NCBI GenBank assembly: GCA_026745465.1
Contig: JACYXH010000242.1
Span: 937,001 to 1,001,000 of the forward strand
Length of the DNA stretch: 64,000 nt
Direction: 5' to 3'
Origin: Lota lota
Lineage: Eukaryota > Chordata > Actinopteri > Gadiformes > Lotidae
Positions 49,501-55,737 of this stretch are shown piece by piece. Each line of letters begins with the position of its first letter. Within the stretch, counting starts at the first letter, position 1. The notes under the pieces are model-generated. The model did not search any database. It was given only the letters and a program-made list of their open reading frames with translations, and was not told the DNA's origin. Made by a program: the position numbers and the translations under genes.

Positions 49501-52500
49501 ATGCATGGTGAGTTCCCAGCTGAGTAGAACTGAGTAACTTTTTTATACCACTGTGAACGCTTCGGGTCTTCCGAGAGCTCTTCGGCTCAACACCGCCACC
49601 TTCAGTTTAGAGCAAGACACGCAAGTTCAATTTCGATACGAGTTGCGTTGTAGATTGATTATTCGAAAGCAAATGTTTCATTTGTTTATGTTTCAAAACG
49701 TTGCATCCTTTCTGGATGACGAGGATACCCTCACAGGGAGCTCGTCTCGACGTTGAACATGCGTGTCTTTTTCTCAGCTGCTGAGACACAAATTGTCGAA
49801 GTGTAGGTTCTCTTGGAAGAACCACTTAAAACCAGTTTAGTGGTATACCGGTATGATAAATTGACGTTTAAACCGTAACGTTAACGGAATGCTTTCAAAT
49901 TGCCAGGACATTTAAAAACGGGAGTGAAACACCAATGCGCATTATGTTAACGGCCCGACGTAGCCGACAAGATAAAAAAGAAAAAGCATAGAGCTAGCTA
50001 GTTAGCTAGTTAACAATTACAAACCAATCTTCAGATGTCGATGTCATGTCAATATAGGCTTTCTCTCATTCATGTCCTCTCTCTCTCTCTCTCTCTCTCT
50101 CTCTCTCTCTCTCTCTCTCTCTCTCTCTCTCTCTCTCTCTCTCTCTCTCTCTCTCTCTCTCTCTCTCTCTCTCTCTCTCTCTCTCCCAGATAAGGGCTTC
50201 TCTGTGTCCAGAGGAGACCTGATAATCACAAAATCTTCATCCTACCTGGTGGAAGACTTCCTGGGGGAAGGAAGCTTTGGGAAGGTAGCCAGATGTGTTA
50301 AAACAGCCACCAATGAAAAGGTGGCTGTTAAAATCATCAAAAAACACCCGGCAATGATTGCGTCGGTTAAGCAAGAGGTAAAATAAAACACATAAATAAG
50401 TTAAAGAACTATGTTATTTTAATATATTTGATTTAATATATAAAATAATTTGCCCATTTTTAAATTGTGCATGTTTCATTTTGGTTTTTCATGTGATTTC
50501 GCATTATAAAATATATTTTTAACCTGCTCTTTATTCTCAGCTTGCCATTTTAAGGCGCCTCCGAGTTCTGGACCCGGAAAGGTGTGGGATCGTGAGATGG
50601 ATGGGGGTCTTCAAACACGGTCCCCACATCTGTCTGGAGTTCGAGCTCCTGGACAAGAGTCTCCTAGACTTCACCCGGCAGACAGCGCACCGCACTCTGC
50701 CTCTGATGCAGATCAAAATCATAGTGGAACAGGTGCGGTTGGACCTCAATCTCAACAACATTGAATACATTGTTGTATTTTCTAAACAGAAATGGTGTTT
50801 CTTGAGTGTGTCTGGTTGCGTAAAAGACTTTGGATTTAATCGTCACACTTTGCTCTTTGGTACTTTTCGACGTGAACCCGAAAGAAATAAAATGTTACTA
50901 AAATAAGAAGAATTTGATGAACCGAAATGGCAACGTATTCAACCTTAACGGTCATAAAATATTGATTTCTAGCTGGCCACAGCCCTTCACCACCTTGGCA
51001 CCCTTGGGATCATTCATGCCGACCTGAAGCCTGAAAATATCATGTTGACAGGACAGGACACTAAAGTCAAACTCATTGACTTTGGCATATCCTGTCATGT
51101 GTCCCAGGCTAAAATTGGCCTCAACTTCCAGACCCTCTGGTACAGGTGAGTAACTGACAGCAATCATGACCTGGGTCCTATTGGTTACTGATTACAATGG
51201 TTATTCCAATTTCCTATCTTTCTTTCATTCCAGATCCCCAGAGATCATGCTGGGTCTCCCATTTACAGGCATGATTGATATGTGGTCCCTGGGTTGCGTG
51301 GCAGCAGAATTGTTAATTGGCTTCCCCATTTATCCTGGCTACACGGAGTACGATATGGTAAGTCTAACAGTGTATTTCAAAGTAAATATACCAAAAACTT
51401 TTTACACTAAGACAATGTTCATATTACAAGTCTGAGTGAGTGGGGATCATTGGAAATATTTTTGAATCCCTGAAAAATATTATATTTCCAAAATAATCCA
51501 TTGGTTGATTGCTAACAGGAAGAAGGTGTTCTGTTGTGTTTCAGTGGAGATATGTCCTACATACCCATGGTGAGCTTCCTGATGCTATGCTGGACCAAGG
51601 CATCAAAACCCCTTTGTGTTTCACCAAAGGATCGGTCTGGAGACTCAAGGTGTCACTATACGTGTCTATCTGTCAACCTGTCTTACTGTATCTATGGGTC
51701 AATATAACTTAACCAAACCAGAGGCTCTTTTTTAGTCACTACGGGAGTATGAGGAGAGCATAGGGCTCAAGCTGCGCCAGACCAGACAGTTCTGTTTCAG
51801 GTCCCTGGAGGACGTTGTCCGAGTAGGTGTTGATCCAGTAACGTTGTGGACTTAAATGCAGTGGCCAAGTTGTGTCCCATCTTCTAAATCATTTCCCTTT
51901 CACCTGAAGGCAGGAAATGGGCTAGGCCAACCTATCCCGCCCAGCTTCACGGACCTGATGAAGAGGATGCTCCATCTGGATGCTGACCAGCGCATCACAC
52001 CACGTGCACTACTGGAGCATCCCTTCATCAGCTTGCTCTTCAAGCCCAACAGCTGCTTCCCTGAGCCCACTATGGTCCAGCCCAACAGCAGCTGCCCTGA
52101 GCCCAGTGTGGTCCAGCCCAACAGCTGCTTCCCTGAGCCTACTGTGGTCCAGCCCATCAGCAGCTGGCTTGAGCCCAGTGTGGACCACCCCAATAGCAGC
52201 TGGCCTGAGCCCACTGTGGTCCAGCCCAATAGCAGCTGCCCTGCGCACAGTTTGAACAACAACAACAACAGCGGCTCCAGCTTGGAAAAGGAGACGAAAC
52301 CATCTCCACCTGTGAGCCACACACCTTCTGTGTCAGAGGAACAGAAGAAGGCCACAGTAGACACCACAGACAGTGGCAAAGGGTAGGTGTGCCATACACT
52401 CTCCAATGCTTCCTTGATCCGCTAATGAGTTGCTTCCTAATATTATGCGTTCAACATTCATATCCAACAGGACCTCCTCAGATGCCAGTACACTGCAGAA

Positions 52501-53274
52501 CTGGCTGAATGAGCCTTTTAACTTCCCCTTGGTCTCTCACAAGTTCAGGTAGGCGAATCTTCTGGCGCTCATATGCTCTTGAGTTCAAGAGTATTTCAAA
52601 AGCTAGCTAGAGTAATAATTTTGTAATTTTGGCTCACCATTTAGGACTATCCGTATTGACCTTATGATGATACAATTTAAATTAATAATCAATAACCTGT
52701 GTGAAACAATGGGTATTACACTGGCAATGAACAAGAAGAAAATGATCATTTTGAGGACAATACAGTATATTGATTAACTTTGTCTTTGCAGGTACTCTAC
52801 CACACCTACATCATTGTGTGATCTGACTGAGTCAGCAGAGAATTTGAGGATTGAGGAACTCAAATTCCCAGCTGAAAGACATAAGTAGGCTCGCTTTCTG
52901 GGGGCTCATGTACCGCTTAATTGTATTTTTTATCAAGATTTGTTGATGGAATTGCGATATATTAAAAACCTTTTCTCTTGATTTTTGATTTTGCAGCACT
53001 GCATCCACACCTACCGCTTCCAATGAGGTTGCCATGGAGACTGTGGAGGTCAAGCCAGCCGTAGCAGACACCCAACTAGGTTTGTCAGAAGTCTAAAGCC
53101 TTAGTCTCCTCATGTTTGTATTTTAAACTTAAACATCAACTTCCTGTTTTGGTGTCATTTTCAGAGGTCACCCAAAAACCTCAGAAGAAACAGGGCAGAG
53201 TAAAGAAGTTCTTTAAGACGGTGTTGAACTCCATCTGCTGCTGTTGCTGCCTTGCCCATGGTGACCTGGACTAA
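49501..53274 (+). CDS. Short HIPK-like protein kinase (fish-type), with coding minisatellite
   Basis: Ser/Thr kinase of the HIPK/DYRK branch, 570 residues, no homeobox-binding region. Twelve exons: 49501-49507, 50190-50377, 50541-50732, 50973-51145, 51234-51357, 51545-51649, 51736-51822, 51910-52382, 52471-52548, 52792-52884, 52997-53079 and 53165-53274. The kinase domain is complete: GEGSFGKV (28-35), Lys50 in [16 protein letters not shown] with Asp146 (HIPK-style Ala instead of Arg), DFG at 165-167, [13 protein letters not shown] and [16 protein letters not shown]. The HIPK/DYRK activation-loop Tyr position reads Asn/Trp. Exon 8 ends the kinase lobe ([17 protein letters not shown]), then has six 12-residue repeats and an NNNNN run. 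The tail is basic and ends in a Cys5 cluster ([14 protein letters not shown]), possibly palmitoylated. Exon 1 codes only MH plus one base. The exon 8 acceptor (AAG at 51907-51909) is the least certain join. Substrates unknown. Confidence 0.85.
50076..50186. repeat. (CT)55 microsatellite forming the kinase exon 2 acceptor tract
   Basis: A pure CT run that ends in CCCAG directly at the exon 2 boundary (50190), so it acts as the polypyrimidine tract of intron 1. Confidence 0.97.
52040..52255 (+). repeat. Coding 36-bp minisatellite, copy 1 (6 units)
   Basis: Six in-frame 12-codon units inside exon 8 of the HIPK-like kinase, of the form VQPNSSxPEPTV. Variant residues are mostly Cys, Trp or Phe at x and Thr or Ser near the end. 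One unit reads [12 protein letters not shown], the form that dominates in the third array. No unit carries a stop. Confidence 0.9.
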
Positions 53275-53285
53275 CTGATTCATAC

Positions 53286-55555: not shown

Positions 55556-55613
55556 CATCTGGGAAAAGGAGACGAAATCGTCTCCACCTGTGAGCCACAC
55601 ACCCTCTGTGTCA

Positions 55614-55646
55614 GGGTTAGGGTTAGGGTTAGCAGGGTTAGGGTTA
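55614..55646 (+). repeat. Short interstitial telomere-like repeat (GGGTTA)3-GCA-(GGGTTA)2
   Basis: Five perfect vertebrate telomere units, interrupted once by GCA, sit exactly at the junction between exon-8-like and exon-10-like sequence of copy 3. In reading frame they code GLGLGLAGLGL-type residues, so the ORF stays open across the junction. Confidence 0.9.
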
Positions 55647-55737
55647 CTTTGCAGGTTTTCTTCTCTGTGTGATCTGACCGAGTCATCTGAGGAATTGATG
55701 ATTGAGGAACTCAATGTCACAACTGACGTATTCTGAA

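Follow-up and report, generated by a model that had tools for sequence, protein, structure and literature searches.

A coding minisatellite as a putative recurrent breakpoint in partial 3' duplications of a HIPK-type kinase gene in Lota lota

The stretch of Lota lota DNA analysed here (64,000 nucleotides, hereafter the window; C242:937001–1001000, in a genome of 575 Mb and 867 contigs) carries what appears to be a working HIPK-type kinase gene, and the explanation considered probable is that a coding minisatellite in this gene has repeatedly provided one end of 3' tandem duplications, with the trailing copies as by-products. The first tail copy of this gene and its paralogue on contig C249 are both intact and both genes are followed by extra tails. 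Judged by the joins, the minisatellite appears to be a recurrent supplier of one breakpoint at two unlinked loci, a readable case of partial 3' duplication from a coding repeat at differing ages and stages of decay. The original prediction had pictured three like cassettes; this image was not borne out, and the locus is best read as a breakage-prone coding minisatellite that would have shed partial 3' copies at two paralogues. No description of such a gene arrangement, a kinase with trailing tail copies, was found in the literature searched.

The kinase gene and its tail

Joining the 12 exons between 49501 and 53274 (plus strand) gave a single open frame of 570 amino acids that ends in tail copy 1, with GT and AG at all 11 introns. 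Across residues 10–337 the best PDB match was HIPK3 (7o7i; E, 5.2e-84), with HIPK2 at 9.2e-83, and among the best 60 of 2590 matches the top three were HIPK3, HIPK2, and HIPK2, the next being DYRK1B (E, 4.5e-50); the matched chains, of 367–404 residues, are kinase domains. Pfam identified Pkinase (E, 4.5e-51). The predicted kinase domain is closest to the HIPKs and the gene is assigned to that family on this likeness, sharing with it the HADLKPEN and DFG motifs but differing in the activation loop. The HIPK activation-loop motif is STY; the tyrosine of HIPK3 (STYLQSRYYR) is Asn in the window gene (exon 4, 50973–51145) and Asp in the paralogue (GIDIQTLWYR; L009:4432–4604), such that the residue expected of a family member is absent from both genes. 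Every kinase exon matched once at the window locus, in agreement with the prediction that the kinase domain is single.

The tail consists of a 12-amino-acid repeat encoded by an array of 36-bp units, the remainder of exon 8 (the exon 8 tail), and exons 9–12, and ends with a basic stretch and five cysteines. In the tail, Pfam returned no domain above cut-off; CYSTM touches the cysteine end below it (21.8 versus 25.2 bits), a resemblance that may offer a lead and no more. Among the best candidates scored, the tail sequence was found at just two loci in the genome; the comparison with the HIPK family covered kinase-domain chains. The boundaries between exons 8 and 9, 9 and 10, and 10 and 11 are in phase 2 and that between exons 11 and 12 is in phase 1, which contradicts the claim that all cassette exons share a splice phase. 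The kinase gene is flanked by a putative OPLAH gene and a chaperonin gene (Pfam Cpn60_TCP1, 2.3e-17), both on the minus strand. Rfam at gathering thresholds gave no match across the whole window. A perfect (CT)54 run (50077–50185) forms the pyrimidine tract right before the exon 2 acceptor, where the tract of the paralogue is short.

A possible parallel is the lineage-specific gain of HIPK genes in flatfishes, where PMC8618825 counts 14 Hipk-family genes among the new genes specific to the Pleuronectoidei; compared with that account, the present case has one close paralogue and its novelty lies inside the gene.

Tail copies in the window and at the paralogue

All tail features in the window are on the plus strand and include three 36-bp arrays (52043–52243, 5.6 units; 53287–53925, 17.8 units; 54968–55549, 16.2 units). 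Copy 1 comprises array 1 with a partial last unit (52043–52260; 5–6 units of the 12-amino-acid coding repeat), the exon 8 tail (52261–52382), exons 9 (52471–52548), 10 (52792–52884), and 11 (52997–53079), and exon 12 (53165–53274), which encodes the basic stretch and five cysteines and closes with the stop codon TAA. Behind it, 11 bp that are probably former 3' UTR are joined to array sequence (junction 1, 53275–53285). Copy 2 begins with array 2 (53286–53936; 17.8 units), which is open throughout in the coding frame, and continues with an exon 8 tail that retains its donor (53937–54058), exon 9 with its acceptor changed from CAG to GAG (54147–54224), exons 10 (54462–54554) and 11 (54667–54749), and exon 12 with a 1-bp deletion, its frame stopping at TGA 54945–54947 (54835–54947). 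Junction 2 (54944–54954) has the sequence of junction 1 and overlaps the frameshifted end of this exon 12. Copy 3 is reduced to a diverged array (54955–55549; first unit of 39 bases, third of 35), a truncated exon 8 tail (55550–55613), a filler of TTAGGG-type telomeric repeats that stands where the remainder of exon 8, intron 8, exon 9, and the greater part of intron 9 would be (55614–55646), and a relic of exon 10 with its donor lost and an in-frame TGA at 55734–55736 (55655–55736). The predicted head-to-tail tripling of minisatellite, exon 8 tail, and exons 9–12 is thus seen in the three arrays and the near-complete copy 2, but copy 3 is without exons 9, 11, and 12.

From the exon 8 tail to exon 12, introns included, copies 1 and 2 are nearly identical, as had been noticed before, with 13 substitutions and 4 indels over 1033 aligned bases (gaps at the array edge and at the alignment end excluded from the indel count). 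When polarised by the paralogue, 7 of the 13 substitutions fell on the side of copy 2 and 3 on that of copy 1, with 3 unassignable. Judged against the paralogue, copy 2 carries two derived lesions that both look damaging: its exon 9 acceptor is altered, and its exon 12 has lost a base where the cysteine codons end. The shared junction was likewise recovered at both places (TAA CTGATTCATAC ATGGACCAGCCCAACAGCAGCTG; 36 identical bases from the last base of TAA), though the stop codon said to stand at each is the same in sequence only: in copy 2 the TAA is out of frame because of the deletion in its exon 12. Between copies, exon 9 varies to an unusual degree in its second half (52471–52548; L009:5863–5946, 6926–7003, 7745–7822).

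A whole-genome DNA search with copy 1 returned one further locus, on contig C249 (best candidates scored). The paralogue there has the same 12 exons intact and two trailing tails. The nearer one is a short array that leads into an exon 8 tail and exon 9; in the farther one, an array of 14.4 units precedes an exon 8 tail, an exon 9, and a degraded exon 12. In a protein search of the genome with the tail, all 20 matches (E up to 1; 28 best candidates scored) fell on C242 and C249, and neither search, among the best candidates scored, gave tail or array copies beyond these two contigs. The kinase domain returned 84 matches, of which those building this gene (57–97% identity) sit at the two loci and the others are more distant kinases, including a few HIPK-like exons (up to 63% identity). 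Stretches of 9.0–9.9 kb around eight other kinase places, a set that leaves out the two best-scoring ones on C659 and C50, matched the kinase part and, in the tail region, gave just weak and apparently low-complexity matches; no exon 12-like end was present in these stretches, which may stop short of the gene ends. One kinase-like fragment on contig C592 (L059:4965–5177; 47% identity) has an internal stop and is possibly an old pseudogene.

Between the window gene and its paralogue, dS in the kinase part is about 0.2 and dN/dS is 0.42 in the kinase part and 0.52 in the tail. Divergence between the two genes in exons 9 and 10 is about equal to or above that of the adjacent introns, and exon 9 taken whole differs more than the introns surrounding it.

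Breakpoints and relative age

In the window, a point 11 bp behind TAA is joined to an array unit. The first junction of the paralogue lies about 13 bp behind TAA and is joined to the array, and the second is situated in intron 9, about 16 bp from its start; about 15 bp of unplaced sequence separate it from the first clear unit. Because one side of each of these three original junctions is non-array, array-to-array homologous exchange alone cannot explain them. Such exchange would suit just the origin of copy 2 from copy 1, for which the identical junction 2 and the array 2 units fit a crossover between arrays, the nearest unit outside array 2 lying in array 1 for 17 of 17 full units. Unequal exchange primed by the array, as originally proposed, is therefore kept in part: the array is a recurrent breakpoint and copy 2 fits a crossover of array 1 with array 3, but the other side of the first junction is not array sequence. 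Short words common to the joins (TGGAC, CTGAG), judged by eye, may represent microhomology. Compared with unequal exchange at minisatellites as a general class, the two loci are alike in having breakpoints in a coding repeat and copies arranged head to tail, and unlike it in the three junctions that join array to non-array sequence.

The order of events that would account for the window begins with the joining of sequence just behind the stop to an array unit, which would have produced an initial additional tail, surviving as the relic copy 3. Copy 2 would then stem from a recent crossover of array 1 with array 3. The loss of exons 9, 11, and 12 from copy 3 would fall at some point in this history, and telomeric repeats presumably sealed a break there: between the exon 8 tail and exon 10, where copies 1 and 2 are uninterrupted, copy 3 has TTAGGG repeats together with a loss of sequence. 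Insertions of short interstitial telomeric repeats at double-strand breaks are described in PMC8537989, and the filler and deletion at 55614–55646 resemble such repair scars, with the difference that the comparison is with sister copies and not with an empty orthologous site.

For the ages of these steps, the window tail copies were labelled W1–W3 and those of the paralogue P1–P3. The dS of about 0.2 between the genes, set against 1.3% for copy 2, indicates that copy 2 is young. The first tail duplication is harder to place. In the exon 8 tail (70 bases), W1 and W3 differ at 8 positions, W1 and P1/P2/P3 at 7/9/8, and W3 and P1/P2/P3 at 13/12/14; in exon 10 (68 bases), the differences are 16 for W1–W3, 14 for W1–P1, and 10 for W3–P1. 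With copy 1 no nearer to copy 3 than to the paralogue, there are hints that the first tail duplication dates back to roughly when the two genes split, although the stretches are short and the relic may change faster. The site patterns conflict, the exon 8 tail grouping W3 with W1 and exon 10 grouping W3 with P1. Also against so early a date, copy 3 is more distant in the exon 8 tail from the paralogue than from copy 1, and the paralogue copies are closest to one another, differing among themselves at 22, 33, and 17 of 285–291 aligned bases and from W1 or W2 at 44–51 of 287–293. It is possible that the tail duplications at the two loci had a common origin with later homogenisation or that they originated independently. 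A candidate conversion tract among the paralogue copies, a block of six sites at which copies 1 and 3 agree against copy 2, was set aside as explicable by private change in copy 2.

Splicing, constraint, and rival readings

A splice matrix was trained on only the native sites of the two genes (22 donors and 22 acceptors), whose own high scores are in part built in, and was scanned over 53270–56100 and over the paralogue, with the native acceptor minimum at 3.0. In the window scan no acceptor scoring this minimum or more lies ahead of or within array 2, the first being at 54013, inside the exon 8 tail, so array 2 could not easily start an exon; nor does a 3' splice site at the native minimum precede array 3. 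The acceptor of exon 9 scores 0.4 in copy 2 versus 4.6 in copy 1, whereas those of exons 10, 11, and 12 in copy 2 score 11.9, 12.6, and 12.7, with donors kept. In copy 3 an acceptor of modest score (5.6) at 55655 precedes the donorless exon 10 relic. Behind the stop of copy 1 the polyadenylation hexamers are ATTAAA at 54631 and AATAAA at 56013; since neither hexamer occurs between the stop and 54631, transcription probably extends into at least part of the trailing copies. Within arrays, pN/pS is 1.47 in W1 (5 units), 1.26 in W2 (17), 0.64 in W3 (13), 1.55 in P1 (3), and 0.95 in P3 (13), which suggests that the arrays are under no strong coding constraint, with a hint of past constraint in the value for array 3. 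The long open frame of array 3 was rejected as a coding sign, as 5000 neutral simulations of a 13-unit array (substitutions without indels) were stop-free in 35% of cases.

These data bear on the claim that one kinase could be spliced to the tails of copies 1, 2, or 3, thereby varying its repeat number and cysteine tail. Such use of the trailing copies as interchangeable cassettes is improbable, though parts of it have support: the joins from exon 9 to 10, 10 to 11, and 11 to 12 are phase-compatible across copies, the acceptors of exons 10–12 in copy 2 are strong, and copy 3 stays in one frame from its exon 8 tail across the telomeric filler into its exon 10 relic. An exchange of exon 10, 11, or 12 between copies is thus possible as far as phase is concerned. 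The want of a native-grade acceptor for array 2 up to 54013, the weak exon 9 acceptor and frameshifted exon 12 of copy 2, and the slight weight of the array 3 frame all count against the cassette reading, and the messages with differing repeat number that had been foreseen are, on the acceptor scores between 53270 and 54013 and at exon 9, unlikely.

A second use, rated as doubtful, would lie in the 3' UTR. Splicing downstream of a stop codon is expected to lead to nonsense-mediated decay of the message, and splicing past the stop of copy 1 (for instance from the donor at 54058) could tune the kinase dose in both paralogues. Both genes have a native-range donor downstream of the first stop, at a distance of 784 nt in the window (score, 9.0) and of 183 nt in the paralogue (7.6), and acceptors follow; the first AATAAA stands behind the last cassette at both loci (56013; L009:8198). 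However, ATTAAA occurs earlier at each (54631; L009:7904), no observation here points to selection for such splicing, and decay is assumed here from the general rule.

It is similarly unlikely that the tail duplication arose once, before the gene split, and was kept and reshuffled in both genes because the trailing cassettes do a job, whether as alternative C-terminal exons or as a spliced 3' UTR controlling the amount of kinase, with the minisatellite generating new tail copies. A functional role for the trailing copies is possible, and the parts observed speak more for debris than for design. If transcripts did use the extra tails, the kinase would gain new C-termini without copying its catalytic domain.

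Under the preferred reading, in which the trailing copies are by-products of breakage at the minisatellite, the protein would most likely be made with the first tail alone, and the trailing copies would probably belong to the 3' UTR or serve now and then as targets of aberrant splicing, given that neither AATAAA nor ATTAAA occurs from the copy 1 stop to 54631. Some features pull against this reading: copy 2 could be usable, given its strong acceptors for exons 10–12 and its donors, array 2 is open throughout in the coding frame, and the pN/pS of 0.64 in array 3 hints at past constraint. An assembly artefact, in which one stretch was repeated in error, could account for no more than copy 2, where the near identity to copy 1 (13 of 1033 aligned bases) would favour it, and is highly improbable in the face of a clearly diverged copy 3 with its own scar, unequal array lengths, and an unlinked paralogue with its own, different trailing copies.

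Mobile-element-like sequence was observed beside the last tail copies. Near that of the paralogue, a minus-strand open stretch (L009:8695–9114) is presumably PIF/Harbinger-type transposase-like. Directly behind that of the window lies a broken LINE-like reverse transcriptase (55872–57054), of which two pieces were searched in Pfam, 56255–56494 without a match and 56779–57054 matching RVT_1 (6.6e-9).
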